A program made the position numbers and the translations under genes. Positions 42,385-58,569 of a stretch of 64,000 nucleotides of DNA are shown piece by piece. The DNA is taken from NCBI RefSeq assembly GCF_003003285.1, contig NZ_PVTP01000004.1:62001-126000 (forward strand), given 5' to 3'. The notes under the pieces are model-generated. The model worked only from the letters and a program-made list of their open reading frames with translations. It searched no databases and had not been told where the DNA came from. Each line of letters opens with the position of its first letter. The stretch's first letter is position 1. This DNA is from Yoonia maritima (GTDB lineage Bacteria > Pseudomonadota > Alphaproteobacteria > Rhodobacterales > Rhodobacteraceae).

Positions 42385-43209
42385 CTAGAGAATAACCCGA
42401 TGTTCAGCTTGGCCTTTGATGTCGGTCTCGGTTTGGAAGGTTTTGCCGTTTGTGTCGTTGTCGGGCAGGCCTGTTGCGGCTGACGTACAAAACAGCGTTG
42501 ACAGGTCTTTTCCGCCAAACGAGGGGCAGGTGGTTTGTGGGGCAGGGAATTCAAAGGCTTTGATAAAGGTGCCGTCTGGTTTGTAACCGGCGACACGACC
42601 GCGACCCCACTGTGCGTTCCACATGTTGCCGTCTTGGTCGATGACGGCGCCATCGGGCCTGTCATCCGTTCCGCGCAGGTCAAGGTGGAGTTCAGGCTCG
42701 CCGTTTGGCCAGCCGTCAGCATCGAGGCTGACACGCATGATTTTCTGAGTTGGGGTATCGGTGAAGTAAGCCGTTTTGCCATCGGGTGCAAAGCAGATGG
42801 CATTTGAGATCGTGATTGGCGTGAACAGCTGGCGCAGTTCACCTTTGTAGTAGCGGTAGATGGCGCCAGCGTTTTCTTCGGCGTTGATGCCCATGGTGCC
42901 GATCCAGAACCCACCCTGCGGGTCGGCGCGGCCGTCGTTGGAACGTGTGATGTTGTTGTCAGCGTCGAGCGCGCAGATTTCGCTATGCTCTCCGCTGGTG
43001 ATATCGAAGCGATTGAGCGCCTTGGCAGAGGCAACGATCAGCGTGTCATCGTCTACCCAACTTGCGGCACTGACGTAAGTGTCGAACTGCCAATGCTTCC
43101 CTTTCGTGTGGAGCCGGTGCCCGAGGATATCGAACCAGAAAAGCTGATTGCGTGTTGGGTGCCAAAGTGGGCCTTCGCCAAGCTGGCATTGGATGTCGTC
43201 GAAAATCAT
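42385..43209 (-). CDS. SMP-30/gluconolactonase family sugar lactonase
   Basis: 274 residues of the six-bladed propeller SMP-30 family: [11 protein letters not shown] with the metal-binding Glu, [34 protein letters not shown] and [14 protein letters not shown]. These carry the divalent-metal ligands Glu, Asn and Asp. It would hydrolyse an aldonolactone (galactono- or arabinono-lactone). It overlaps dgoA by four bases. Confidence 0.9.
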
Positions 43210-43811
43210 GATGATGCCTCGTCAAATGCGGCGACAATGTCGATGGCGCGGGCGCTAATATCCGCAATCGACATGCCGGGTTTATAAAGTGCGGAGCCAA
43301 TGCCGAATCCATCGGCGCTGGCGTCCAGCCATTGTTTGAAATTTTCAGGGCCTGCGCCACCAACGGCGTAGACGAGCGTACCTTGAGGAAGGACAGCGCG
43401 GAACGCTTTGATCCCGTCAGGACCGATCAGGTTTGCCGGGAATACCTTTAACCCATCTGCGCCTGCTTTGAGTGCTGTGAAGCATTCGGTTGGTGTCATG
43501 ACGCCCGGCCAACTATGCATGCCTGCTGTTTTGCTGGCGAAGATGACGCGCTGATCGCAGTTTGGCGAAACGATGAGTTTGCCGCCCGCCTGGGCGACAC
43601 GGCCAACATCGTCGGGCGATAGAACTGTACCGGCACCGATCAATGCCGTTTCGCCGTAGGCATCGGCCATTGCCTTAATACTATCGAACGGATCAGGAGA
43701 GTTGAGCGGGACTTCGATCTGGGTGATCCCCGCGTCGATAAGCGCGGCCGCCGCAGGTGCTGCCTCATTAGGTGATATGCCGCGCAAAATGGCGATGATG
43801 GGACGTTGCAT
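43206..43811 (-). CDS. dgoA: 2-dehydro-3-deoxy-6-phosphogalactonate aldolase
   Basis: 201 residues, KDPG/KDPGal aldolase family. [12 protein letters not shown], catalytic Glu in QIEVPLNSP, phosphate-site GAGTVL, and Schiff-base Lys in DGLKVFPA. The NSPDPF and NCDQRVI variants favour KDPGal aldolase (DgoA) over Eda. It yields pyruvate and glyceraldehyde 3-phosphate in the De Ley-Doudoroff galactose path. First gene of the leftward dgoA-lactonase-galM unit. Confidence 0.9.
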
Positions 43812-43941: not shown

Positions 43942-44814
43942 TCAACGTTTGCCGTAATATAGGCCGACGACGTGCTCTGTTTGGGCAAAGAACAGCCAGC
44001 GCAGGCAAAGGACCCCGGCAATGTGGCAAAGCACAGCAAGCGCCGCAAAGATGTGGTTAAACGGTAGGATGAACAGAATGATTGGGGCAATGAAGCCCAA
44101 GGCTGTCGCGATGATTTGCAGCCGTTTTGCGTGCTTGCGCCCTACAACGTAGATGAATTCACGCATGAGGTAGTTACTGCCAGTATGTGGTGGTTCAAAC
44201 GCGCGGACCTTGCCGATGTGACCTAGCCCTGTGGCCGTTTGCATATCACTGCCCGAGTTAAGGAACCGCTGATCGCCGGCTATCCACGCATATGCCTGAA
44301 GCACGCCAGCCAAAGCCAGTAACACGATTGCATTGGTGACCTGACCGGCCAGCAATGCGCCGCCACCGAAGGATAGCCCCAAGAAGAGTACCGGTGTTGT
44401 CCAATGGTGCCAGCGGGGTACTGTCTTTAGCTGCGTATAGATCATTGACGTTGTGAATACGGTCGCGATTGCGCCGAACGCGCCAAGCCACCCGAGAAAC
44501 GCGACGCGCGTTCCCGTAAATACCAAACCTGCACCGTAGATCGCCATGATCACCAAGGCGAGGACTGCGGCGATGCCTTCGCGGCTTAGCCAGCTTGTTT
44601 TCCATTGGCTGAATGCTTTGATGGCGCGTTCAGGGCGACCAAGGTGAAAGGTGGATGCAAGCAACCCACCGACCGCGCAAGCATAAGCGCTTGTGAACCA
44701 GATAAATGCCGATAGTCCCGTTGGTACGATTGCCCCGATGCCGAGCCAAAAAAGCAGCCCAAAGCCCAGACCTGAAAACGTGGTGAAAATGATAACCGAT
44801 GGCGCTGGGTGCAT
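43942..44814 (-). CDS. DmsC/SoeC-type membrane anchor subunit
   Basis: 290 residues with about eight membrane segments and the DMSO-reductase-anchor motifs STFHLGRPERAIKAFSQWKTSWLSREG and GDQRFLNSGSDMQTATGLG. It would pass electrons between quinone and the FeS subunit. Given the taurine/Xsc/sulfite context, SoeC of a sulfite dehydrogenase is more likely than DmsC. Start overlaps the FeS-subunit stop (TAATG). The gene is intact although the catalytic subunit is not. Confidence 0.88.
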   Translation of the reverse strand: MHPAPSVIIFTTFSGLGFGLLFWLGIGAIVPTGLSAFIWFTSAYACAVGGLLASTFHLGRPERAIKAFSQWKTSWLSREGIAAVLALVIMAIYGAGLVFTGTRVAFLGWLGAFGAIATVFTTSMIYTQLKTVPRWHHWTTPVLFLGLSFGGGALLAGQVTNAIVLLALAGVLQAYAWIAGDQRFLNSGSDMQTATGLGHIGKVRAFEPPHTGSNYLMREFIYVVGRKHAKRLQIIATALGFIAPIILFILPFNHIFAALAVLCHIAGVLCLRWLFFAQTEHVVGLYYGKR

Positions 44815-45563
44815 TAATTGGTTCTCCCCGGCAGGGCAGACAGCGCCCGATCAAGCCACGCAACAAAACCTTTTCCGTTGTGTGCGACAGGTTCTAGATG
44901 CTGGGCAGGCACCGCCACGTCTTTGGGCCGTGGTGGTAGGTATTTGTTGACCGGCTTGGTGCCTAATTCTGGCATCAAATCAAACCCGCCGCGTTCGGCG
45001 ACCAATTGCGAAACTTCACTTGTTTCATCCGCCAAGTCACCAAAATGGCGCGCGCCTGATGGGCAGGTCCGAACGCAAGCAGGTTGGCAGTCTTCCTCGG
45101 GTAGGTTTTCGTTATAGATACGATCAACGCAAAGGGTGCATTTCTTCATCACGCCCGCGTCCGCATCCAATTCGCGCGCGCCATAGGGACAGGCCCAAGC
45201 GCAAAGCCCGCAGCCGATACAGTCCTTTTCGTTTACCAACACGATGCCATCTTCGGACCGCTTATAACTCGCCCCGGTAGGGCAAACGGTCACGCAGGGC
45301 GCATCTTCGCAGTGTAAACAGGATTTGGGAAAGTGGACCAGTTGCGCTGGGCCCGCTTCGGGTTGGACTTCATAGGAATGTACCCGGTTGAGGAATGTTC
45401 CGGATGGTTCCGCGCCATACGGGTCTTGGTCAGATAGGGGCGCACCGTAGTTTTCGGTGTTCCAGCCTTTGCAGGACACAACGCAGGCATGGCAGCCCAC
45501 ACAGGTATCCAGATCAATGACCAACCCGAGCTTTTTGGCGGAGGGCGGAGGAAGTTGGGTCAT
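44814..45563 (-). CDS. 4Fe-4S ferredoxin-type subunit (SoeB/DmsB-like)
   Basis: 249 residues with four Cys clusters: CVGCHACVVSCK, CLHCEDAPCVTVCPTGA, CIGCGLCAWACPYGA and CTLCVDRI...CQPACVRTCPSGA, giving four 4Fe-4S centres as in DmsB/SoeB. It is the electron-transfer subunit between molybdopterin enzyme and membrane anchor, on the cytoplasmic side (no Tat signal). ATG 45563 overlaps the stop of the 49-codon gene upstream (ATGA). Confidence 0.92.
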   Translation of the reverse strand: MTQLPPPSAKKLGLVIDLDTCVGCHACVVSCKGWNTENYGAPLSDQDPYGAEPSGTFLNRVHSYEVQPEAGPAQLVHFPKSCLHCEDAPCVTVCPTGASYKRSEDGIVLVNEKDCIGCGLCAWACPYGARELDADAGVMKKCTLCVDRIYNENLPEEDCQPACVRTCPSGARHFGDLADETSEVSQLVAERGGFDLMPELGTKPVNKYLPPRPKDVAVPAQHLEPVAHNGKGFVAWLDRALSALPGRTN

Positions 45564-45709
45564 GCGATGGCCCTTTCGATTTGTGCTGGCGTGAGCTGGC
45601 CAATCGGTTGTTCTTTGGCTGGATCCCATGTGACGATGAACCAGATAAAACTACCGAGTGTGAGCGTCACGAATGCAGCGATAAGGAGAAGTGTTTTTGT
45701 CTTGTTCAT
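45560..45709 (-). CDS. 49-residue single-span membrane peptide in the soe operon
   Basis: A short gene starting MNKTKTLLLIAAF with a hydrophobic span LLLIAAFVTLTLGSFIWFIV (about residues 7-26), followed by a soluble tail with LTPAQIERAIA. A potential GGGA lies about ten bases before the ATG. Its stop overlaps the soeB start by four bases and it begins four bases after the preceding ORF, so the operon packing itself argues it is translated. Likely an accessory membrane subunit or assembly peptide of the oxidoreductase; function not known. Confidence 0.78.
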   Translation of the reverse strand: MNKTKTLLLIAAFVTLTLGSFIWFIVTWDPAKEQPIGQLTPAQIERAIA

Positions 45710-45713
45710 CGCT

Positions 45714-46079
45714 TCATTCCCTAACTGGTACGCCTGCAGCGCGGCAAATTTGCCGTAACCCGTCCAGAGCCACTGCTCGCCCTGATACTTGCGGCGGTAT
45801 ATCGATCCGTAATAGGTTCTGTTCGTCGGTACCGGCGATATTGGCCACGGCTAATGTGGCGCCCTTTGGGTCAAGACTGACAGACATGAGGCAATCGTAA
45901 CTGCCATTGGACTGCTCATTCACTTCTATGTACAGCCCATTCAGCCCCAGCGCATGGTCCTGCGCGTCAGCCTCGTCGGAACGCGAAAGGATGACATAGT
46001 GAGTTTGGCCATTATCATTGGCGAAACTGACATAGCTCGCCCCACATTCTGCGTAAGTTGACACCACGTTCGCAATCAT
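45714..46079 (-). CDS. Hypothetical soluble protein in the soe operon
   Basis: 121 residues starting MIANVVSTYAECGASYVSF, with no signal peptide or membrane span. ATG 46079 overlaps the stop of the soeA remnant (ATGA), so its translation was coupled to soeA. I recognise no family. Position suggests an assembly factor or chaperone for the molybdoenzyme, but TorD/DmsD-type motifs are absent. Confidence 0.72.
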   Translation of the reverse strand: MIANVVSTYAECGASYVSFANDNGQTHYVILSRSDEADAQDHALGLNGLYIEVNEQSNGSYDCLMSVSLDPKGATLAVANIAGTDEQNLLRIDIPPQVSGRAVALDGLRQICRAAGVPVRE

Positions 46080-46962
46080 GCCCCGACCTTCCATTCTAAA
46101 GAGGTCGGTCCTTTGCCTACGGGCGATTTTATCTCGGGCAATTCTGGCTGCACTTCTGTTGGTGGGGTGGTTTTGGCAATTTTCACACGCAGATCAAACC
46201 ACGCGGCTTGGCCGGTGATCGGGTCAGAGTTCGCCCAGCGCAACCCGTCGCCTTTGGGCGGCAATAGTTCGTGGATCAGGTGATTAAGCAGGAACCCTTT
46301 GGTTGCTTCAGGTGCGTCTTTGTCTAAGCCCCAAGTGCCCTTGCGTTTGCCGATGGCGTTCCATGTCCAGATCGTATTCTCGTTCAGGCTGGCCTGATGG
46401 GCAACGGGTACGGTGATTGTGCCGTGTGCAGACGTCACCTTGGCCCAGTCACCGTCCTTGAAATTCTTTTCGTTCCAAATTTTAGTCGGCAGGTACAGCG
46501 GGTTCACCCCATGGATTTGCCTGAGCCAAGCATTCTGCGAACCCCATGAATGATACATCGCCATCGGGCGTTGTGTTAATGCATGGATGGGGTATTCATT
46601 TTGGTCGATGTGATCATCTTCGATCGGGGCATACCAGATAGGCAGCGGGTCCATTGTTCGTTGGATTTGTTTGCGCAGGTGGTCTGGGGGCTGGCGTAAT
46701 CCGTTGCCTTCAGCGGCGGCTTGGAATTTGCGCATTGGTTCGACGTAAAGCTGAAAGATATAAGGCTGGACCACATCGTAGCAGCCTATTTTCACCGCCC
46801 ATTCCTGATAGGCCATGTTGAAGGGTTTGTAATAGGCGGCCTCTTCGGGAACATGTGAAACCCAAAAACCACCGTTGTCGATGTAGTTCTGTAGCAGGTC
46901 GTTTTGCGCACCTCGTCTGATACAAAGGGGGACGTGTCGACGCTGGGCTGGTCTAGTGACAT
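46076..46962 (-). pseudogene. soeA: Internally deleted molybdopterin oxidoreductase, sulfite dehydrogenase SoeA-like
   Basis: The 5' end is intact: AAGGAAG ribosome site, ATG 46962, then MSLDQPSVDTSPFVSDEVRK and TTCY, where intact family members continue with the Cys-rich FeS motif. Instead the sequence jumps, in another frame, to a C-terminal region readable from NDLLQNYIDNGGFWVSHV to the end (~270 residues, including the MGD-binding-fold part PLYLPTKIWNEKNFKDGDWAKV). Roughly two thirds of a ~950-residue protein are missing, including FeS and most cofactor-binding parts. The start frame stops after 56 codons. A 14-bp stretch at 46890-46903 fits both sides, as expected for deletion between short repeats. 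Confidence 0.88.
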
Positions 46963-46973
46963 GTGTCTTCCTT

Positions 46974-47234
46974 TCACGCGATTTGGGTTCGGATTAAGCC
47001 GATAAGAGCGAGGCCGACCAATAAGATAAGGCAAAACGGCCGATAGTAAGGGACAAGCCTTTCAGTGACTAAACGCTGCCGGATCAGGAAACCCATGGTC
47101 GTTGGGGCCGCAAATAATAGGCCACATGCAAACCCCGAAAACCCGCGCACGACCCCGGCAAGAAGAACGATAACCCCAAGGATTATGAACGCTTGGCTGG
47201 TAAGGTTCGTTACGCTGAGCAGGGTATCAATCAT
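46974..47234 (-). pseudogene. Internally deleted TauE/SafE sulfite-exporter-like gene
   Basis: 86 codons, against ~250 for the family. The N-terminus (LLAGVVRGFSGFACGLLFAAP) matches the start of TauE proteins, and the rest (IRQRLVTERLVPYYRPFCL then LILLVGLALIGLI) matches the extreme C-terminus of the intact copy at 49242-49985. The middle ~150 residues are gone, in frame. It begins directly at the ackA stop and precedes the soeA remnant. A functional mini-protein cannot be excluded but is unlikely. Confidence 0.72.
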
Positions 47235-48296
47235 TCAGGGCCTATTCATTAGGGCAAGCGCATCACGAGCGATCTGTTTTTCCTCGTCTGCGGCGATCAC
47301 ATGGATAGGTGGCGCGCCAAAGCATGTGAGATGCGCCATGATTTTATCACGAATGGGGGCCGCGTTTTCACCTATACCACCCGTAAAGGCTACGGCGTCG
47401 ACACCGCCCATCGCGACAATCGCTGACCCGGCTTGCCGTGCGGCCCAATAGCAAAAGTGATCAACCGCAAAGCGCGCGTCATCATCGTCGCGTTCTAGCA
47501 GGTTTTTCATATTGTTGTCGCCAGCCAGACCTTTCAGCCCACTTTGTTTGTTTAACAGCCTATCTGCGCCTGCCAGCCCCAGTTCATCCGCGATCCGCAA
47601 AACGGCGGCCCCGTCGATTTCACCGCAGCGGGTGCCCATCACCAGCCCTGACATGGGCGAATAACCCATCGAGCTTGCGACGGATTTCCCATCTTTGATC
47701 GCGCAAAGGCTGGCCCCATTGCCAAGATGCAGCGCCAATAGACGGGGAGGAAGGTCATCCCCAAACTCTGAAACCATGTTGGCATAGGACGATCCGTGAA
47801 ATCCATAGCGTTGAATGCCCGCGGCGTATTGCGCATCAGGAATGGCATAGCGCGTGGCGACATCGGGGTTCGTCGCGTGAAATGCAGTATCAAAGCTCAC
47901 AAACTGTGGCAGGTCTGGGTGGGTCTTGGCCAAAGCCTCGATCCCGAGCAGGTTCACCGGGTTGTGCAGTGGGGCGAGCGGAATGCAGGCACGGATCGCA
48001 TCGATGACCTGCGGTGTCACGCGTGCGGGTTCTGTAAAATATGTGCCACCATGTACAACACGGTGCCCCACGGCGGTAATATCTGTTGTTTTATGACCCG
48101 CGTCGTCAAGCGCCGTCATCATTTGCGCAAGTGCACTGGCGTGATCTGGGGCGTCGACGTTGGATTTGTTCTCGCCCAGATTCAATGTGCTATTCGTGCC
48201 AATCTCGCTCACGATTCCATCGGCGATTTGCGTAAGGTCGGCCTGAAACAGGCTGACCTTTAACGATGATGATCCGGCGTTGACGACTAGGATCAT
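47235..48296 (-). CDS. ackA: Acetate kinase
   Basis: 353 residues with the AckA motifs VVNAGSSSLKVSL, GHRVVHGG, APLHNP, FDTAFHATNP, LHLGNGASL, SGLVMGTRCGEID and FTGGIGENA. It makes ATP and acetate from acetyl phosphate, here the product of Xsc. Start 48296 overlaps the pta stop (ATGA). It is slightly shorter than many homologues but has every catalytic motif. Confidence 0.94.
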   Translation of the reverse strand: MILVVNAGSSSLKVSLFQADLTQIADGIVSEIGTNSTLNLGENKSNVDAPDHASALAQMMTALDDAGHKTTDITAVGHRVVHGGTYFTEPARVTPQVIDAIRACIPLAPLHNPVNLLGIEALAKTHPDLPQFVSFDTAFHATNPDVATRYAIPDAQYAAGIQRYGFHGSSYANMVSEFGDDLPPRLLALHLGNGASLCAIKDGKSVASSMGYSPMSGLVMGTRCGEIDGAAVLRIADELGLAGADRLLNKQSGLKGLAGDNNMKNLLERDDDDARFAVDHFCYWAARQAGSAIVAMGGVDAVAFTGGIGENAAPIRDKIMAHLTCFGAPPIHVIAADEEKQIARDALALMNRP

Positions 48297-49228
48297 GATG
48301 CCGCCGCCACGATTGCACCTAAGGCGGCCGAACAGATGCGTGCGGGTGCCTGTTGACTGCGCGAGGTAAGAAGGACCGGAACCTTTAGCCCCATAACTAG
48401 CCCGCCGGCGCAGCACCCCATGCCAAGCACCATAAGTTTGAACAGCGCGTTCCCGGACGTGATATTTGGCGTCAGCATAATGTCAGCGTCGCCCGCCACG
48501 TCAGAGGCATAGTTCTTTGCCTTGGCTGCAGCCGCGCTGAATATCAGGTCGAGCGCCATTGGCCCTTGGACCGTTGCGTTCGGCAATGCATCTTTGGCCC
48601 ATTCTGCGATTTCTGCGGCTTCCATCGTGTTTGGGATCGACGGGATTGGATCCTCGGTGGGGGCAAGAATGCCCGCTTTGACCTGTGTATCGCCTAATAT
48701 TTCGGCCAACCGTACAGCGTGGCTAAGGCAGGCTTTACGTGTGTCTACGTCGGGATCCACGTTTAGCGCGGCATCGGTCAAGAATAGTGGCCGTTCCGAT
48801 CCGGGGCGCGTGATGTGAAAAATATGACCGCAACGCGTCCCTTTTTCACGCAGGCCTGCCGCCGAAGGCAGCAACCCTTTCAGAAACGTAGACGTATGAA
48901 TTTGGCCCTTCATGATGCTATCGACCTCGCCAGCGCGGGCAAGCTCTGCCGCTCGCGAGGCGGCAGCAGCATGGGGTGCGTGCTCAATCCGATAGGGGCT
49001 GATGTCCCAACCGATTTGTTTCGCAGTATCGTTGATCTTGTCAGCGTCCCCAATCAGTACAGGGTCGGCAAGGCCCAGATCAGCGGCTTCGCGGATACCT
49101 TGCAGTGGGTTCACTGAACCCGCGTTGACCAAGGCAACTTTTGGCGCTGGAAGGCTTTGTGCTTTGGCGAGCAGCCCTGCTGGGCAGGGCGCTGTTTCGG
49201 TGGCAAGAAACGGGAAGGGGAGGGTCAT
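48293..49228 (-). CDS. pta: Phosphate acetyltransferase (Pta, phosphate acetyl/butyryltransferase family)
   Basis: 311 residues of the short single-domain type. SIMKGQIHTSTFLKGLL, HIFHITRPG, FLTDAALNVDPD and ADIMLTPNITSGN are family motifs. It converts acetyl phosphate plus CoA to acetyl-CoA, the usual final step in Xsc pathways. It lies between an intact tauE (13 bp upstream) and ackA. Confidence 0.93.
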   Translation of the reverse strand: MTLPFPFLATETAPCPAGLLAKAQSLPAPKVALVNAGSVNPLQGIREAADLGLADPVLIGDADKINDTAKQIGWDISPYRIEHAPHAAAASRAAELARAGEVDSIMKGQIHTSTFLKGLLPSAAGLREKGTRCGHIFHITRPGSERPLFLTDAALNVDPDVDTRKACLSHAVRLAEILGDTQVKAGILAPTEDPIPSIPNTMEAAEIAEWAKDALPNATVQGPMALDLIFSAAAAKAKNYASDVAGDADIMLTPNITSGNALFKLMVLGMGCCAGGLVMGLKVPVLLTSRSQQAPARICSAALGAIVAAAS

Positions 49229-49241
49229 TCGGCTATGCCTT

Positions 49242-49985
49242 TCATGTCATCATCGGCCTAAGTAGGCCAAGCGCTGACAAGATCAGCAAGAGAAAAACGG
49301 CAAACCGACGAAAGGTAAGCGGGGAAGCGGCCAAAAACTGGCGACCGCCCAACCAGACGCCTAATCCCAGAATAGGAAAGGCCAAAGCCGCAGCCCGCAC
49401 AGTATCCCCACTGACAAGGCCACCATGCCACATCAGCGGTAGTGTCATCATATCGAGCCCCGTCAGGAACACGATCATCGTCGCTCGAAACTGCGGGGCT
49501 TGCATGGGCTGCGCCGATAGGAATGCCGCGACAGGTAGTCCGCCAACACCCGCGCTATTGCAAACGCCAGAGATTACGCCAACGCCAGCATGCCCAATGG
49601 GGCCGATGATGCGTTGAAGCGTCCATCCAGAAAGCAAAACCAGCGATAGCGTAAGGATAATCGCCGAGATCACCATCCGCACCGTTTCGTCCCCGACCGA
49701 AAGAACGATGCTAACCGCAAAGGGAAGCGCAACAGCCGCCCCAACAAGCAGAGGTATGACCCGGCGCCAGTCGATCTGGCCACGAATGCCACGCGCTTGG
49801 AACCCGGTCATCATCATTTCGCAAGCAAAGACGACGGGGATCAACGGCAGCGGGTTGGTCAGCAGTGCCGCAAAAGCGATGAAAATTGCCGAAAACCCAA
49901 ACCCAGAATAGCCTCGCACAAACGCTGCCCCAAGCAATGCAATTGCAAGGGCCGCGGTTGTGCCAAGGCTTAAGTCAAATGGCAA
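49242..49985 (-). CDS. TauE/SafE family sulfite/organosulfonate exporter
   Basis: 247 residues, seven to eight membrane segments, with the two family repeats seen as FVRGYSGFGFSAIF and GVISGVCNSAGVGGLPV. In taurine degraders such proteins (TauE/TauZ type) are thought to export sulfite. Located three bases after xsc and 13 bases before pta, so in the core operon. This copy is full length, unlike the one at 46974-47234. Confidence 0.9.
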   Translation of the reverse strand: MPFDLSLGTTAALAIALLGAAFVRGYSGFGFSAIFIAFAALLTNPLPLIPVVFACEMMMTGFQARGIRGQIDWRRVIPLLVGAAVALPFAVSIVLSVGDETVRMVISAIILTLSLVLLSGWTLQRIIGPIGHAGVGVISGVCNSAGVGGLPVAAFLSAQPMQAPQFRATMIVFLTGLDMMTLPLMWHGGLVSGDTVRAAALAFPILGLGVWLGGRQFLAASPLTFRRFAVFLLLILSALGLLRPMMT

Positions 49986-49988
49986 AGC

Positions 49989-51761
49989 TTACTCGGCAGC
50001 CATGTCATCAGAAGATACGCCCGCGACGCGCACAGGTTTCTTCATTGCGTCACGACGGAATGGTTCACCGAGTTCTTGGTTCAAGATAACTTCGATCAGG
50101 GTGGTTTCGTTGTTTTCCATCTGATCCTTGATCGCTTGGTTTAGAACAGCGGTCAGTTCGTCCATTGTTTTCGCCTGAACGCCCTTCAAACCACAGGCCT
50201 GCGCGATACCAGCATAGCTGACCTTCATGTCCAGTTCGGTACCAACAAAGTTATCGTCGAACCAAAGGGTCGAATTCCGCTTTTCGGCGCCCCACTGGTA
50301 GTTGCGGAAAACGATCTGCGTGATGGCGGGCCATTCGTCACGGCCGATCGCGGTCAGTTCATTCACCGAAATACCAAACGCACCGTCACCGGCGAACCCA
50401 ATCACAGGAACATCCGGCTGGCCAATCTTTGCGCCTACGATGGACGGCAGGCCATAACCACATGGGCCGAATAGGCCGGGGGCCAGATATTTGCGACCTG
50501 TTGGGAAGGATGGATAGGCATTGCCGATGGCACAGTTGTTGCCGATGTCAGAGCTGATGATCGCGTTCTCTGGCATCGCGGATTGGATCGCGCGCCACGC
50601 CATGCGCGGGCTCATCCAATCGGGGCGGGCCGCACGGGCGCGTTCGTTCCAAGTGGTGCCCGGATCGTCTTCTTCGTGGTCAAGGCTGGTCAGTTCTTGT
50701 GCCCACGCGGATTTCAGGTTTCCAATCAGCGCTTTGCGTTCATCGCGGCCTGGATCGCCTGCGTCATCTGATAGTTGCTCCAGAATACCAGTTGCTGCTT
50801 TGGCTGCATCAGCGACAATACCGACACTGACCTTTTTGGTCAGACCAATCCGGTCGGGGTTAATATCCACCTGAATAACTTTGGCGTTTTCAGGCCAATA
50901 GTCGATGCCATAGCCCGGCAGGGTCGAGAATGGGTTCAAGCGTGTGCCCAGTGCCAGCACAACATCTGCCTTGCTGATCAGCTCCATCCCTGCTTTTGAT
51001 CCGTTATATCCCAATGGGCCTGCGAACAACGGGTGGGTGCCGGGAAATGCGTCGTTGTGCTGGTAGCCAACGCAAACAGGGGCATCTAGACGTTCGGCCA
51101 ATGCCTTGGACGCTGCAATGCCACCTTCGGCCAGAACCACACCGGCGCCGTTTAGGATCACTGGGAACTTAGCGTTTGATAGTAGCTCGGCAGCCTTGGT
51201 AATCGCGGTCTCGCCGCCTGCAGGGCGTTCGAAATCAACGATCATCGGTAGTTCGATGTCGATGACTTGTGTCCAGAAATCACGCGGAACATTGATTTGC
51301 GCGGGCGCACTGGCACGTTTGGCTTTCATGATAACGCGGTTCAGCACTTCGGCGACGCGGGATGGGTCGCGCACCTCTTCTTGATAGGCGACCATGTCTT
51401 CGAACAGTTTCATCTGCTCGACCTCTTGGAAACCACCCTGACCGATTGTCTTGTTCGCGGCTTGTGGCGTGACCAACAGCAGTGGTGTGTGGTTCCAATA
51501 TGCTGTCTTCACGGCCGTCACAAAGTTAGTGATCCCCGGCCCGTTTTGCGCGATCATCATCGACATTTCACCAGTGGCACGGGTGTAACCGTCTGCCATC
51601 ATGCCTGCGGACCCTTCGTGCGCACAGTCCCAGAAACTGATTCCTGCCTTCGGAAAGATATCCGAGATCGGCATCATCGCGGATCCGATGATCCCGAAAG
51701 CATGCTTAATCCCGTGCATTTGCAGGGTTTTGACGAATGCTTCTTCGGTGGTCATTTTCAT
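49989..51761 (-). CDS. xsc: Sulfoacetaldehyde acetyltransferase
   Basis: 590 residues, thiamin-diphosphate enzyme. N-terminal MTTEEAFVKTLQMHGIKHAFGIIGSAMMP, HEGSAGMMADGYTRATG (catalytic Glu region), and the ThDP-Mg motif near GFAGDGAFGISVNEL with a downstream Asn. The sequence matches Xsc rather than acetolactate synthase in its start and ending. It cleaves sulfoacetaldehyde with phosphate into acetyl phosphate and sulfite. TauR-like boxes lie upstream between it and tauR. Confidence 0.95.
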   Translation of the reverse strand: MKMTTEEAFVKTLQMHGIKHAFGIIGSAMMPISDIFPKAGISFWDCAHEGSAGMMADGYTRATGEMSMMIAQNGPGITNFVTAVKTAYWNHTPLLLVTPQAANKTIGQGGFQEVEQMKLFEDMVAYQEEVRDPSRVAEVLNRVIMKAKRASAPAQINVPRDFWTQVIDIELPMIVDFERPAGGETAITKAAELLSNAKFPVILNGAGVVLAEGGIAASKALAERLDAPVCVGYQHNDAFPGTHPLFAGPLGYNGSKAGMELISKADVVLALGTRLNPFSTLPGYGIDYWPENAKVIQVDINPDRIGLTKKVSVGIVADAAKAATGILEQLSDDAGDPGRDERKALIGNLKSAWAQELTSLDHEEDDPGTTWNERARAARPDWMSPRMAWRAIQSAMPENAIISSDIGNNCAIGNAYPSFPTGRKYLAPGLFGPCGYGLPSIVGAKIGQPDVPVIGFAGDGAFGISVNELTAIGRDEWPAITQIVFRNYQWGAEKRNSTLWFDDNFVGTELDMKVSYAGIAQACGLKGVQAKTMDELTAVLNQAIKDQMENNETTLIEVILNQELGEPFRRDAMKKPVRVAGVSSDDMAAE

Positions 51762-51902: not shown

Positions 51903-53363
51903 TTAACGCTCTGCGAGCGCTCGTGCAATTAATCGCACGCCCGGCGCAATTTTCGATGACGGGATCGAAGAATAGGCAAGGCGAAAATATTCGGTCGGTG
52001 GTGTTTCCGACGCAAAGAACGGCGCGCCGGGTTCCATTAATACGCGATCCTCGCGCAGCTGGGCAGATAGTTGCGCTGTGTCTGTGCCATCTGGTGCACG
52101 TAACCATACCGCTGATCCGCCGTAGGTTCCGTGCCCAGCAACGTTTAGGCCATATTCCTTTAGAGCTGCATCCATGACCTGACGCCGCGCATGGTAGGCC
52201 TTGCTCATGCGTCGGATCAGCGCGTCATAATGCCCAAGCGACAGGTAATAGCTAACTGTGCGCTGAATGTGCCCCGGTGGGTGGCGCAATATAGTCGCCC
52301 GCAGCGCGCGCGCCTCGCGGATGAATGGGGCAGGTCCGACAAGGTATCCCAGCCGTAGTCCCGGAAATAACGACTTTGAGAATGATCCGACGTAGATCAC
52401 CCGCCCGTTCTGATCGAGCGATTTGAGCGACGGAGAGGGCGGCTTTAGAAATGACATCTCGAATTCATAGTCATCTTCAACGATCAGAAAATCGTCTTCT
52501 TCGGCCTTACGCAGCAGGGCTTTGCGACGGTCCACGGACATTGTCGATGTTGTTGGGCATTGGTGACTAGGGGTCGCAAACACGACATCTGTATCATCAG
52601 GAAGCGCATCTGGCGGAAGCCCATCCCCATCCACCGGCACGGGCGTGTATTGGCAGCGCGATTGGTCCAGAATATTGCGAAGTGCTGGATAGCAGGGGTC
52701 TTCGATTGCGGCCATCCGTCGGCTATTCAGCAGTACCTGCGCCGAAAGCCAGAGCGCGTTTTGTGCGCCCATCGTGACAAGAATTTCGTCTTCGTCCGCT
52801 AGAATCCCACGTCGAGGTAACGTTTGGCGCGCGATGAACTCAATCAACTGTGGATCGTCGCCATCGTAATAATCAGCGGTCATCGCACTGAAATCACGCA
52901 TCCCAAGCGCCCGCAGCGCGCATAGTCGCCAGTTGGCAGTATCAAATAAGGTTTTGTCGGCTTGGCCGTAGATGAAAGGATATTTATAACTGGCCCAATC
53001 TGCGGGCTTGTCCATATTCAGCCCCGGCGCAAACCGTTGCCCGATCGCACGGCTCCAATCGACAGTGCCGACTTGGGCGCGTTTTGCGGGAAAAGCTGGC
53101 GGTTCAGGCGCGTTTTCGGATACGAAAAAACCAGATCGTCCGCGCGATGTTAGATAGTCATCGGCGACCAATTCAGTATAGGCAAGCGTGACTGTAATCC
53201 GGCTAACCCCTAGATGGGCAGCCATTTTCCGCGACGAAGGAAGCCGTTCGCCTGCCCGAAACCGTCCGGCAAGGATGCCTTGCGCGACCATCTGTTGCAC
53301 GCGCGCCTGCAACGTGCCTACGGCAGATGGGTCAAGAAAGAAAGTATCGACAGCGATTGACAT
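51903..53363 (-). CDS. tauR: MocR/PdxR-type transcriptional regulator TauR
   Basis: 486 residues: an N-terminal GntR winged helix (GILAGRFRAGERLPSSRKMAAHLGVSRITVTLAYTELVADDYL) and a C-terminal aminotransferase-like PLP domain with the Lys site YVGSFSKSLFPGLRLGYL. TauR proteins activate taurine genes in response to taurine and PLP. It lies between tpa and xsc on the same strand. Two boxes directly precede its ATG, which suggests autoregulation. Confidence 0.92.
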   Translation of the reverse strand: MSIAVDTFFLDPSAVGTLQARVQQMVAQGILAGRFRAGERLPSSRKMAAHLGVSRITVTLAYTELVADDYLTSRGRSGFFVSENAPEPPAFPAKRAQVGTVDWSRAIGQRFAPGLNMDKPADWASYKYPFIYGQADKTLFDTANWRLCALRALGMRDFSAMTADYYDGDDPQLIEFIARQTLPRRGILADEDEILVTMGAQNALWLSAQVLLNSRRMAAIEDPCYPALRNILDQSRCQYTPVPVDGDGLPPDALPDDTDVVFATPSHQCPTTSTMSVDRRKALLRKAEEDDFLIVEDDYEFEMSFLKPPSPSLKSLDQNGRVIYVGSFSKSLFPGLRLGYLVGPAPFIREARALRATILRHPPGHIQRTVSYYLSLGHYDALIRRMSKAYHARRQVMDAALKEYGLNVAGHGTYGGSAVWLRAPDGTDTAQLSAQLREDRVLMEPGAPFFASETPPTEYFRLAYSSIPSSKIAPGVRLIARALAER

Positions 53364-53447: not shown

Positions 53448-54830
53448 TTAGCCAAGCACGCGTTTGATCGCGTTCCCGACCGCCTCTGTGACTTGGTTCA
53501 TATCGTCTTTTGTTGCGACCAAAGATGGGGCAAACAAAATTGTGTTGTTATAGCCAGGTACAGATCTGTTTGTGCCACCGACAATCACGCCTTGGTTCAT
53601 GCAATCCGCAACGATAGCCGCGATGTATTTTTCATCAACGGGTTCTTTGGTGTCACGGTCTGTGACCAGTTCCGCACCTGCGAACAGTCCCATGCCGCGA
53701 ATGTCGCCGATCCATTTGTGTTCATCCATCAGGCCCGCAAGGTTACCCATCAGATGTTCGCCCATAGCGGTTGAGTTCGTAAGTAAGTCTTCTTCGACAA
53801 GAATATTCATGTTTTCGATCGCAGCAGCAGGGCCACCTGTACAGCCGCCAAAAGTCGAAATATCACGGAAGTAGCTCAGTTTATCAGTGTCGTCTTTGAA
53901 CTGCTCAAAGACAGCATTCGTTGTGACACAGCATGAAATTGCGGCATATCCAGACGCAACGCCTTTGGCCATCGTGACAATATCTGGCTTGATCCCAAAT
54001 TGCTGATAACCGAACCAAGTCCCGGTACGCCCCATGCCGCAGACGACTTCATCGATGTGCAAAAGGATATCGTATTTTTCGCAAATCTCTTGCACGCGCT
54101 CCCAGTATCCTTTGGGTGGAACAATAATACCACCGCCCGCTGTAATGGGTTCTAGGCACAGCGCACCAACAGTGTCTGGACCTTCGCGTAGGATCACATC
54201 TTCGATCGCTTGGGCGGCGGCATGGCCGTATGCTTCGCCTGTCAGGCCGTTTTCAGCGCGGTATTCAAGGCAATGCGGTACGCGCACGAATCCGGGCGCA
54301 AATGGGCCGTACTGTGCATTGCGTTCGTCCTGTCCGCCCGCAGACAGCGCACCTAGCGTTGTGCCGTGATAGTCGCGGTCGCGGTACAGAATTTTGTATT
54401 TCTTGCCGCCATGATGCTTGTGGCTGATCTGGCGAACCATTTTAAAGGCTTTCTCGTTCGCTTCGGAACCAGAGTTAGCATAGTAAACACGATCAAGACC
54501 GGGCATCTTGTCGACCAGCATCTCTGCAAATTGTGCACCTGGGATGGTTCCGGCAGTTCCGCCGAAGAAACACATCTTGGTCACGGCCTCGGCAATCGCG
54601 GTACCGATGCGTTCGCGGCCATAGCCGACATTAACGGTCCAAACGCCACCGGACACGGCATCTAGATGTTCTTTGCCTTTGATATCCCAAACGCGTAGGC
54701 CTTTGCCTTCGACCATGATGCGCGGGTCAGCGGTTTCATAAGTCTTATGCTGGCTTAGGTGATGCCAGATGTGCGCGCGGTCTGCCTCGATCACATGGCC
54801 GGGATCATTAAAGAAATTGGTGGTGTCCAT
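53448..54830 (-). CDS. tpa: Taurine-pyruvate aminotransferase
   Basis: 460 residues, class III aminotransferase. ANSGSEANEKAFKM (PLP phosphate site), YHGTTLGALSAGGQ, LLHIDEVVCGMGRTG and the PLP-Lys in TMAKGVASG (Lys289). It transfers the amino group of taurine to pyruvate, giving sulfoacetaldehyde and alanine. Context (tauR, tauABC, xsc) fixes the substrate. Divergent from tauA across 479 bp. Confidence 0.93.
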   Translation of the reverse strand: MDTTNFFNDPGHVIEADRAHIWHHLSQHKTYETADPRIMVEGKGLRVWDIKGKEHLDAVSGGVWTVNVGYGRERIGTAIAEAVTKMCFFGGTAGTIPGAQFAEMLVDKMPGLDRVYYANSGSEANEKAFKMVRQISHKHHGGKKYKILYRDRDYHGTTLGALSAGGQDERNAQYGPFAPGFVRVPHCLEYRAENGLTGEAYGHAAAQAIEDVILREGPDTVGALCLEPITAGGGIIVPPKGYWERVQEICEKYDILLHIDEVVCGMGRTGTWFGYQQFGIKPDIVTMAKGVASGYAAISCCVTTNAVFEQFKDDTDKLSYFRDISTFGGCTGGPAAAIENMNILVEEDLLTNSTAMGEHLMGNLAGLMDEHKWIGDIRGMGLFAGAELVTDRDTKEPVDEKYIAAIVADCMNQGVIVGGTNRSVPGYNNTILFAPSLVATKDDMNQVTEAVGNAIKRVLG

Positions 54831-55309: not shown

Positions 55310-56317
55310 ATGAAACTCAAAACAGTATTCATGGGTGCCGCCGCTGGCATGGCGATGATGACCGGCGCCACATCTGCAGTCGCAGAAGGACACGGGGAAA
55401 TTACCGTTGGCTATTTCCTCGAATGGCCGATGCCGTTCCAATACGCTAAGGTGAATGGCACCTATGACGAAGCGCTTGGTATGAAGGTGAATTGGGTCAG
55501 CTTTGACGCGGGTACCGCGATGTCGGCAGCGATGGCATCTGGCGACGTCCAGATTTCAGTCAGCCAAGGCGTGCCACCATTCGTGGTTGCCGCATCCGCC
55601 GGGCAAGACCTGCAAATTCTGGACGTAGCGGTGTCTTATGCCGAGAACGACAACTGCGTCGTTGCGTCCGGGCTTGAGATCGACAAAGACAGCGCTGACG
55701 AACTGGCAGGCAAGAAAGTAGCTGTGCCGCTGGGTACGGCAGCGCACTATGGCTTCCTGCGTCAGATGGAACACTTCGGCGTCGATCTTGCCTCGCTTGA
55801 TATCGTCGATATGGCGCCGCCGGATGGTGCCGCTGCAATCGCACAGGGTTCAGTTGATATGGCTTGTGGCTGGGGCGGTTCGCTGCGCCGCATGAAGGAA
55901 TATGGGAACGTCCTGTTGACCGGCGCGGAGAAAGAGGAGCTTGGCATTCTTGTGTTCGATGTCACATCTGCACCCGCAAGTTTTGTCGCTGAGAATCCAG
56001 AACTGGTTGCTAAATTCCTTGCCGTCACTGCCGAGGCAAACGCTGCATGGAACGACGGTTCTGGTGTCGAGGCAATGCTGCCCGTGATCGCCAATGACGC
56101 CGGTATGGACGAAGACGCGACGGCTGAAACGATGGCGACATTTGTGTTTCCATCGGTCGCCGAACAATTGTCTGACGCTTGGCTAGGTGCCGCCGCACCA
56201 GCGTTCATGAAGGGCGTCGCCGATGTGTTCGTTGAATCAGGATCAATTGACAGCGCGCTAGATAGCTATGCTGGCAATGTGAACACTGGGCCACTGGCGA
56301 CACTGAACGACATGTAA
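55310..56317 (+). CDS. tauA: Taurine ABC transporter substrate-binding protein
   Basis: 335 residues with a signal peptide (MKLKTVFMGAAAGMAMMTGA, cleavage after AVAEG-like AVA). The SsuA/TauA fold shows ITVGYFLEWPMPFQYAK and GKKVAVPLGTAAHYGFLRQM. It captures taurine in the periplasm. It is followed by tauB and tauC; the tauA-tauB gap carries two TTTTCTAGAAAA palindromes. Confidence 0.92.
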   Translation: MKLKTVFMGAAAGMAMMTGATSAVAEGHGEITVGYFLEWPMPFQYAKVNGTYDEALGMKVNWVSFDAGTAMSAAMASGDVQISVSQGVPPFVVAASAGQDLQILDVAVSYAENDNCVVASGLEIDKDSADELAGKKVAVPLGTAAHYGFLRQMEHFGVDLASLDIVDMAPPDGAAAIAQGSVDMACGWGGSLRRMKEYGNVLLTGAEKEELGILVFDVTSAPASFVAENPELVAKFLAVTAEANAAWNDGSGVEAMLPVIANDAGMDEDATAETMATFVFPSVAEQLSDAWLGAAAPAFMKGVADVFVESGSIDSALDSYAGNVNTGPLATLNDM

Positions 56318-56358
56318 ATCCTTTGTTCCCGGCGCGGTCAGTTTACCCGCGCCGGGGC

Positions 56359-56380
56359 AAGAATTTTCTAGAAAATTCTT
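56359..56380. repeat. 22-bp perfect palindrome, AATTTTCTAGAAAATT family
   Basis: Core AATTTTCTAGAAAATT extended by AAG/CTT. It lies 42 bp after the tauA stop. Same core as at 10223-10244. Confidence 0.8.
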
Positions 56381-56400
56381 ATGCATGATGCGACGTGCAA

Positions 56401-56420
56401 ATAATTTTCTAGAAAATTAT
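56401..56420. repeat. 20-bp perfect palindrome, TTTTCTAGAAAA centre
   Basis: ATAATTTTCTAGAAAATTAT, with centre 41 bp from the preceding palindrome (about four helical turns), ending 11 bp before the tauB ATG and next to its AGGAG ribosome site. Confidence 0.8.
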
Positions 56421-56431
56421 AGGAGCGGGAT

Positions 56432-57235
56432 ATGTCAGGACTTCAGATAGACAAACTCTCAATGCGGTTTGATCTGCCGAATGGGTCATCAGTGCAGGCG
56501 TTAAAAGATGTCTCGATTGATCTAAAAGCCGGCGAATTATTGTCGGTGCTTGGCCCATCGGGTTGCGGAAAAACGACCCTGTTGAACATTGTCGCGGGGT
56601 TTCTTGCACCGACTGACGGGAAGATCGTCTTAAACGGCAAGAAAGTCACCGGGCCAGGCGCAGAGCGAGGCATGGTCTTTCAACAAGGGGCGCTGTTTGA
56701 ATGGATGAGCGTACGCGAAAACGTTGGCTTTGGCCCGTCGATGAAGGGCATGGCAAAAGCCGAGAAGGCACAGATCGTTGATCACCTGTTGGATGTGGTT
56801 GGGCTACAGGATTTCAAAGAAAAGGCTGTCTACGAATTGTCTGGCGGGATGCAGCAGCGCGTGGCACTTGCCCGTTGTCTGGCTAATGAGCCGGACGTCA
56901 TTCTGATGGATGAACCGCTTGGCGCGCTTGATGCCTTGACCCGCGAAAAGATGCAGGGCCTTGTTCTGAAACTGTGGAAAGAGACCGGCAAGACGATCAT
57001 CTTGATCACCCATTCCGTCGAGGAAGCACTGCTACTGGGTGAGCGACTGATCGTGATGGCCCCGCGTCCGGGTCGTATCCACCGTGAATACAACCTGCCT
57101 TTCGCTGAAATGGGCGTAAATCAAGACCTCAGAGAGGTCAAAAAGGATCCACGGTTCAATGAAACCCGCGAAGAAATCCTCGCGATGATTTGGGACATGG
57201 AAGAAGAAATCATGGGCCGGACGGAGAACGCGTAA
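56432..57235 (+). CDS. tauB: Taurine ABC transporter ATP-binding protein
   Basis: 267 residues, NitT/SsuB/TauB type. Walker A GPSGCGKTT, signature LSGGMQQRVALARCL, Walker B VILMDEPLGALD and switch His in ITHSVEEA. It powers TauABC. AGGAG precedes the start. Its stop overlaps the tauC start (TAATG). Confidence 0.94.
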   Translation: MSGLQIDKLSMRFDLPNGSSVQALKDVSIDLKAGELLSVLGPSGCGKTTLLNIVAGFLAPTDGKIVLNGKKVTGPGAERGMVFQQGALFEWMSVRENVGFGPSMKGMAKAEKAQIVDHLLDVVGLQDFKEKAVYELSGGMQQRVALARCLANEPDVILMDEPLGALDALTREKMQGLVLKLWKETGKTIILITHSVEEALLLGERLIVMAPRPGRIHREYNLPFAEMGVNQDLREVKKDPRFNETREEILAMIWDMEEEIMGRTENA

Positions 57236-58569
57236 TGGAGCTGCTTTCAGACTTAGGTTCAGAACTTTGGGCCGTTCTTTCTACCCTGTTCAAAGCGGCA
57301 CCATACATTATCGGCTATGTCGTTCTGATCTTGGTGATGATGGCAATCTGGAGTGGTATCAAACGGCTTTTGACGCCGAAACATGACTATAGCTCGCTCA
57401 AAACAGTGACCTTTGGTGACGAAAGCGCAGTGACATCAAACACAGTCGCTTCTGTTGTGTCAGTGGTGCTGATCTTTGTGCTGTGGGGCGCGTTTACTGG
57501 GTCAAAGTTATTGCCGGGCTTCATGCATGCGCCCGGCGCATTTACCGGGAATGGTTCGTTTACCTATACTATCACAACGCCCGACGGGCAGACCGATGAT
57601 GCGACGGTGTCGGTCATCGTGCACCCTGCAACGATTGAAACCGAAGCACCCGAGGTTAGCCCGGGAGACGGCATCGCCAAAGACGATTCCATTGCAATTG
57701 CTAGCTATCGCAGCGCGCTGCTACGGGTTGATCGCAATGATGAAATGGGACGCGACGAAGATACCTTTATTACGGCGGTCAACGGCCAGCCAATTACCCC
57801 GGAAGGGTCGGTTAAGGTTGATTTTGGCACTGTCGCGATGTCAGCGAAGGGGACGCTGAACATTATCCCCGCGACAGGTATACAAATGGAGCCCATATGG
57901 TTGCCCGCGCCAGAAGCTGTCTGGAAACGCATGACCGAAATCGCGACTGATGGGTTTCGAAACTCAACATTGATGGAACATTTGGGGTATTCTTTGTTTC
58001 GTGTCGTCGTTGGTTTCCTACTTGGTGCGATTGTCGGGATCCCCTTGGGCTATGCGATGGGATTGTCGAACTGGTTCCGTGGTTGGTTTGATCCAATTGT
58101 CGAATTCATGCGCCCAGTGCCGCCGCTTGCGTTGATCCCGCTCGTGATCATATGGGCGGGCATTGGCGAGGTCGGAAAAATCATCCTGCTGTTCCTAGCT
58201 GCGCTGTGGATCATGGCGATTGCTGCCCGTTCCGGCGTGTCAGGGGTTCGGATATCCAAGGTGCATGCGGCCTATTCCCTAGGTGCTTCGAAATGGCAGA
58301 TCATGCGTTATGTTATCATCCCGAATTCATTGCCTGAAATCTTTACAGGTGCGCGTGTCGCAATGGGCGTATGTTGGGGGACTGTTGTTGCCGCCGAACT
58401 GGTCGCCGCCGAAAATGGCGCGGGCATGATGATTATGGTCGCGTCTAAATTTCAAAGCACGGACATTGTTCTAATGGGTATCATCTTGATCGGGATAATT
58501 GGCTTTAGCATCGACATGCTGATGCGCTGGATCGAGCGCGTCTTGGTACCATGGAAGGGCAAAGGTTAA
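57235..58569 (+). CDS. tauC: Taurine ABC transporter permease with extra N-terminal domain
   Basis: 444 residues, much longer than the ~270 of ordinary TauC/SsuC. Two N-terminal membrane segments (about 20-41 and 71-88) bracket a cytoplasmic stretch. A ~130-residue, probably periplasmic beta-rich segment (90-215, e.g. FTYTITTPDGQTDDATVSV) precedes the normal permease (about 220-444) with EAA loop AAYSLGASKWQIMRYVIIPN. The extra domain could dock TauA or sense substrate; this is inference. A terminator follows. Confidence 0.9.
   Translation: MELLSDLGSELWAVLSTLFKAAPYIIGYVVLILVMMAIWSGIKRLLTPKHDYSSLKTVTFGDESAVTSNTVASVVSVVLIFVLWGAFTGSKLLPGFMHAPGAFTGNGSFTYTITTPDGQTDDATVSVIVHPATIETEAPEVSPGDGIAKDDSIAIASYRSALLRVDRNDEMGRDEDTFITAVNGQPITPEGSVKVDFGTVAMSAKGTLNIIPATGIQMEPIWLPAPEAVWKRMTEIATDGFRNSTLMEHLGYSLFRVVVGFLLGAIVGIPLGYAMGLSNWFRGWFDPIVEFMRPVPPLALIPLVIIWAGIGEVGKIILLFLAALWIMAIAARSGVSGVRISKVHAAYSLGASKWQIMRYVIIPNSLPEIFTGARVAMGVCWGTVVAAELVAAENGAGMMIMVASKFQSTDIVLMGIILIGIIGFSIDMLMRWIERVLVPWKGKG

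Follow-up and report, generated by a model that had tools for sequence, protein, structure and literature searches.

Evidence for a recent internal deletion in soeA, beside the taurine genes of Yoonia maritima

Introduction

The genes soeC, soeB and soeA of Ruegeria pomeroyi DSS-3 correspond to SPO3557-3559 and lie beside pta (SPO3560) and tauR (SPO3562), according to the available part of PMC4334477. The absence of soeABC from some members of the group is already in print: in the available part of PMC11034169, which gives presence and absence only, the type strains of Sulfitobacter pontiacus and S. litoralis are without soeABC and their congeners possess it. Sulfite release from a sulfosugar has been described for a Paracoccus (PMC12421959, available as an excerpt).

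Here, a stretch of 64,000 nucleotides of Yoonia maritima (contig NZ_PVTP01000004.1, positions 62,001 to 126,000), called the window, was analysed. It carries a soe locus next to a set of taurine genes, and sulfite is assigned as the SoeABC substrate on the basis of homologues and of the taurine context. A preliminary description of this DNA had reported that soeA, the gene for the catalytic subunit, was destroyed by an internal deletion. In this work the locus was compared with its counterparts in 56 Yoonia genomes.

Results

The soeA locus of the window is the remnant of a SoeABC sulfite dehydrogenase member (Table 1). On the minus strand, an ATG at 46962, preceded by GGAAG resembling a ribosome site, opens 24 native codons (46962-46891, MSLDQPSVDTSPFVSDEVRKTTCY), the last residues of which are TTCY. 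Past codon 24 the frame shifts to the native C-terminus, which comprises the last ~275 codons and stops at 46076; the out-of-frame first ORF has 56 codons and ends at the stop in 46794-46792. The counterparts found at the same position start with MSLDQPxLDTSPxVSDEVRKTTCYMCACRCG and show, ~640 codons further on, NPDQLQNYIDNGGFW or variants of it. Among the 33 relatives with both soeA ends, the spacing between TTCY and the Q(L/I)..YI motif was 641-646 codons (L049, interrupted by a contig end, was excluded from the count). Therefore, ~1.9 kb is missing here, corresponding to codons 25 to ~667, or ~68% of a SoeA of 935-942 aa.

In the SoeA of relative L042 (934 aa), PF04879 was located at residues 18-67 and PF00384 at 73-579. 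Compared with this map, the window copy has lost most of the Fe4S4 domain and the entire molybdopterin domain, and a PF01568 match, below the cut-off, is all that remains. The C-terminal piece displayed 78-83% identity to same-genus relatives. The locus has the structure of a pseudogene formed by internal deletion, with native ends joined, the middle and the frame lost, and complete orthologues in relatives. These results are in agreement with the preliminary description, in which the start and ~24 native codons up to TTCY were joined out of frame to the C-terminus, about two thirds of the gene were missing together with its FeS and most molybdopterin-binding regions, and soeB, soeC and two small ORFs were intact; all four were found to be open.

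The same description had included a 14-bp tract (46890-46903) that would read naturally on both sides of the junction. This part had to be given up, since the C-terminal reading fails: the residue aligned with the first L (CTG) of the window was Q in 33 of 33 relatives, and the codon just before D encodes N in the window and in none of the relatives displayed in the alignment. Both observations indicate that these bases derive from the N-terminal side, and a perfect repeat of 14 bp was ruled out. The tract possibly common to both sides is GCTACA or CTACA (46895-46890), which is 5-6 bp long with an imperfect extension beyond it. Such a tract would fit a microhomology deletion, as weaker evidence than first claimed.

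Table 1. Features of the soe locus and of the adjoining taurine genes (window positions)
Feature	Position	Strand	Evidence
KDPG-type aldolase gene, next after soeC; right flank in YPC211 (G005) and S4079 (G063)	43206..43811	-	PF01081
soeC, DmsC-like membrane anchor	43942..44814	-	PF04976 DmsC, E 8.4e-7, above cut-off
soeB, iron-sulfur subunit	44814..45563	-	PF13247, E 3.5e-23; other 4Fe-4S families
Small conserved ORF, 49 aa, before soeB	45560..45709	-	relatives
Small ORF, weak Imm10-like match below cut-off	45714..46079	-	Pfam; relatives
soeA remnant, whole	46076..46962	-	both terminal pieces native but in different frames
soeA C-terminal piece; holds 246-codon ORF from ATG 46816	46076..46895	-	identity to relatives; ORF list
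Deletion junction, 5-6 bp assignable to either side	46890..46895	-	relatives compared
soeA N-terminal piece, 24 codons ending TTCY	46891..46962	-	start position common to relatives
tauE remnant, 86 codons, in-frame deletion, junction near 47126	46974..47234	-	comparison with relatives
ackA, acetate kinase	47235..48296	-	PF00871
pta, phosphate acetyltransferase	48293..49228	-	PF01515
Complete TauE-type gene adjoining xsc	49242..49985	-	PF01925, above cut-off
xsc, sulfoacetaldehyde acetyltransferase	49989..51761	-	TIGR03457 and NF005713, above cut-off
MocR-type regulator, named tauR by position	51903..53363	-	NCBIfam: PdxR, above cut-off
Aminotransferase, named tpa by position	53448..54830	-	aminotransferase families, best one below its cut-off
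ABC transporter, probably TauABC	55310..58569	+	NMT1/OpuAC, BPD_transp_1; taurine ATP-binding subunit the best family, below cut-off

A second deletion was found ~230 bp from the soeA junction, in the tauE gene directly upstream. The remaining 86 aa, compared with ~254 aa in relatives that have tauE, consist of 36 residues of the start and 50 of the end of a TauE-family protein, so that ~168 codons (~500 bp) were deleted in frame. The residue at the junction is C, versus R in the eight relatives displayed. No Pfam match was obtained for the remnant at 0.01, while the G021 copy matched PF01925. The nearest soe-bearing relatives (G022, G030, G064 and G070) have no tauE at this place, and the deletion was for this reason judged from more distant ones. 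It seems that tauE is often dispensable at this position.

The rest of the cluster is well preserved. The soeB product is a ferredoxin-like protein with several 4Fe-4S sites, 81-91% identical to the proteins encoded in the same position in relatives, and that of soeC is a DmsC/NrfD-like membrane anchor. The taurine genes and one TauE-type exporter gene are open; the names tpa, tauR and TauABC are partly positional, since the family matches were below cut-off or to PdxR. Pta shares 82-99% identity with the window copy in a few close relatives, whereas most Yoonia loci have a Pta with 41-48% and some one with 65-73%. This spread at the same place suggests that pta may have been replaced in part of the genus.

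A small ORF before soeB was present at 32 of 37 loci, mostly with ~47-67 aa and the hydrophobic stretch LLLIAAF..LT.GSFIWFIATWD. No Pfam match was detected for the window copy, and its product might be a component of the Soe complex that has no name yet. What lies between soeA and this ORF differs between relatives. In this genome it is the weak Imm10-like ORF, which has homologues in G022 and G011. G030 encodes a DUF6882 protein there, with similar ORFs in G064 and G070, and L044, L070 and L075 have ORFs of 208 aa or 167 aa; the remaining loci lack a large ORF there.

In order to place the lesion, full-length SoeA was searched in the 56 Yoonia genomes (E <= 1e-20). A match was found in 54, and it was complete in 50. 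Three more were cut by contig ends, namely G072 (residues 2-905 of 935), G001 (two pieces at two ends) and G075 (one piece, where a contig starts), and the genome under study (G000) yielded a fragment only. The full-length form is the normal one among these genomes, and the short form is not. No SoeA match was obtained at this threshold in Y. maritima YPC211 (G005) and Loktanella sp. S4079 (G063).

The match of YPC211 to the window covers 9.9 kb at 91.7% and breaks off at 47126; it resumes from 43966 downwards at 85.7%, this flank beyond the lost block being the more divergent one. In between, a 3.16-kb part of the window comprising soeABC, both small ORFs and the end of tauE is replaced by ~100 bp. 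The remainder of tauE in YPC211 contains stops and extends into residues that are deleted in G000. In S4079, 114 bp separate the matches to ackA and to the aldolase gene. All three genomes keep the taurine genes and the TauE-type exporter gene adjoining xsc.

G000 and YPC211 were sisters with a support of 0.999-1.000 in the rpoB tree (built without G022, which gave no rpoB match, and G033, with a partial one) and in the six locus-gene trees that contain both. As soeB, soeC and the C-terminal part of soeA are still in their native place in G000, the loss in YPC211 postdates the split of these genomes; since YPC211 retains tauE sequence that is absent from G000, the losses are not a single event. 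The position of S4079 was variable: outside this group with rpoB (0.999), with G000 and YPC211 in the xsc tree (0.966) and weakly in the tauR tree (0.77), and elsewhere in those of ackA, tauE2 and tpa. On any of these trees its loss would be separate from that of YPC211, unless DNA was exchanged. A loss shared by both through exchanged flanking DNA was considered and is not favoured, because on neither flank was YPC211 closer to S4079 than G000 was (72.9 vs 73.1% and 75.8 vs 75.6%). The separate loss of the same module in two close relatives indicates that soe seems to be dispensable or disfavoured in this small clade.

The age of the lesion was estimated from residues unchanged across the other 36 loci and covered by at least 90% of the loci. 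G000 showed changes at 1 of 156 such residues in the C-terminal part of soeA, at 1 of 171 in soeB and at 2 of 117 in soeC; private changes in these genes in other single genomes amounted to up to 5. Under neutrality, 50.7, 55.6 and 37.5 changes, respectively, would be expected after the divergence from YPC211. This expectation was calculated from a mean dS between G000 and YPC211 of 0.30 over six genes that all flank the locus on one side (tpa, tauR, xsc, tauE2, pta and ackA), with ~0.15 assigned to the G000 branch; the tauE remnant (dS 0.59) and the aldolase gene (dS 0.63) were kept outside the mean, and their inclusion would raise it. For a single change, the upper 95% Poisson bound is 4.7; set against 50.7, this estimate allows the soeA piece to have been unconstrained for at most ~9% of the G000 branch. 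Pairwise dN/dS values of the C-terminal part of soeA from G000 against four intact relatives were 0.08-0.09, and 0.05-0.10 among those relatives.

Other sulfite-oxidizing enzymes were sought in the genome. No second SoeA was found in G000 at E <= 1e-20. Four PF00384 proteins were detected, of which NuoG and a formate dehydrogenase alpha subunit were above their NCBIfam cut-off and two FdhA/Nas-like proteins below. The sole PF00174 protein of G000 is MsrP (equivalog NF003767, above cut-off), and no replacement of the SorA/SorT/SoxC type was found through this family. Taken together, the families searched gave no known sulfite dehydrogenase in G000; such searches detect known enzyme types, and sulfite-oxidizing enzymes of unknown type are invisible to them. 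In YPC211 and S4079, PF00174 was represented by MsrP and one weak short match each, that of YPC211 just above the Pfam cut-off. No AprA above the cut-off was found in G000, YPC211 or S4079, a weak negative because none was found in the 14 control genomes either. A search of a plasmid collection returned 13 records, all with less than 60% identity. Yoonia sp. I 8.24 (G070, L184) encodes, in addition to a complete soe set, a protein of 428 aa that matches PF00174, PF03404 and, weakly, a TAT signal, an architecture like that of SorT/SoxC-type enzymes.

Discussion

Judged from sequence comparison, the soeA lesion of this strain is very probably real, recent and ordinary in kind. We favour, with a probability of roughly 0.8, the reading that soeA is a very young pseudogene, produced by a ~1.9 kb microhomology deletion, accompanied by a second deletion in tauE and by the loss of the Soe route, with parallel losses in the clade. 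The recent deletion of the catalytic subunit, as put forward in the preliminary description, is borne out by the complete SoeA of 50 of the 56 genomes, by the constraint on the orphan pieces, in which the C-terminal part of soeA changed at 1 of 156 residues against ~51 expected since the split from YPC211, and by the lack of a second SoeA at E <= 1e-20 and of any PF00174 protein besides MsrP. Its picture of gene loss has to be amended in one respect: the soeA deletion stands, but as an isolated event it does not, given the overlooked in-frame deletion of tauE and the two relatives without the whole block. This is ordinary gene loss, unusually repeated in one small branch.

Among the other explanations, the most serious is a genuine deletion that occurred while the strain was isolated or passaged in the laboratory, a complete soeA persisting in the wild population. 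The near-zero decay of the orphan pieces (1 of 156 in the C-terminal part of soeA) is compatible with an age near zero. However, two neighbouring genes carry deletions and two related species have lost the block, which points to natural dispensability in the clade, and we consider an origin in culture unlikely.

An assembly error, with cells that carry a complete soeA, is still less probable, even though this draft genome consists of 26 contigs. The common tract measures 5-6 bp, too short for the usual assembly collapse; the site lies well within a contig of 381,621 bases, the missing part was found nowhere else in the genome at E <= 1e-20, and a second junction is located ~230 bp away. An old loss, with relaxed selection eroding the operon from a time before the sister species diverged, could account for a sister without the block and with a tauE remnant decayed by stops. 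This is very improbable, since soeB, soeC and the C-terminal part of soeA are at full constraint in G000 and the tauE sequence lost from G000 is still present in the sister, so the losses were not one event. Finally, the short form might be functional, the open 246-aa C-terminal ORF being translated by re-initiation at ATG 46816, with the stop of the first ORF 22 bases further on, and serving a new role with SoeB and SoeC, but the absence of the Fe4S4 and PF00384 regions and of this form from every other one of the 56 genomes, apart from G075, whose match ends at a contig end, makes this the least credible alternative.

In the favoured reading of a very young pseudogene, a ~1.9 kb deletion between 5-6 bp of microhomology would have removed codons 25 to ~667 of soeA, predicted to encode the catalytic Mo/FeS subunit of SoeABC, a membrane-bound sulfite dehydrogenase, and another would have taken ~500 bp in frame from the adjoining tauE. 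SoeB and SoeC would now be orphan subunits. Taurine would still be cleaved to acetyl phosphate and sulfite via TauABC, Tpa and Xsc. The sulfite would be exported, either by the complete TauE-type protein encoded next to xsc or by one of four further ones; alternatively, it could be assimilated or chemically oxidized, and would not enter the Soe respiratory route. The strain probably exports it, with the expected phenotype that sulfite from taurine is released without oxidation by Soe.

A broader suggestion is that three lineages (G000, YPC211 and S4079) have repeatedly switched from oxidizing to releasing taurine sulfite because the loss is favoured, with G000 at the first step. This is put forward tentatively and we would sooner expect it to be wrong. 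If true, soe loss would be favoured, for example, where neighbours use the exported sulfite or where the yield of the Mo/FeS enzyme falls short of its cost.

Genes are commonly lost by deletion, and the useful part of this finding is its timing: a sulfite-producing pathway from which the oxidizing step has been freshly removed. The second deletion, in tauE, and the parallel loss in close relatives raise its interest. Together with relatives in which this loss has advanced further and others in which the step is intact, the strain forms a natural set for asking whether taurine degraders can live by sulfite export. It is also a warning that soeB or soeC alone is insufficient to predict sulfite oxidation. 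A literature search retrieved no report of a soe lesion in Yoonia, nor of a locus at so early a stage of soe loss.

Compared with the described systems, the window shares pta and tauR as neighbours with the SoeABC genes of R. pomeroyi DSS-3 (SPO3559-3557), a likeness of gene neighbourhood as far as the available part of that source goes; it differs in its broken soeA and in having ackA, two tauE genes and two small ORFs in the cluster. The missing soeABC of S. pontiacus and S. litoralis amid soe-bearing congeners is similar, in the available text, by presence and absence only. The closest parallels are YPC211 and S4079, which have the same taurine module and no soe genes. There the block was removed outright, leaving a decayed tauE remnant in YPC211, whereas in the present strain it is broken in place.
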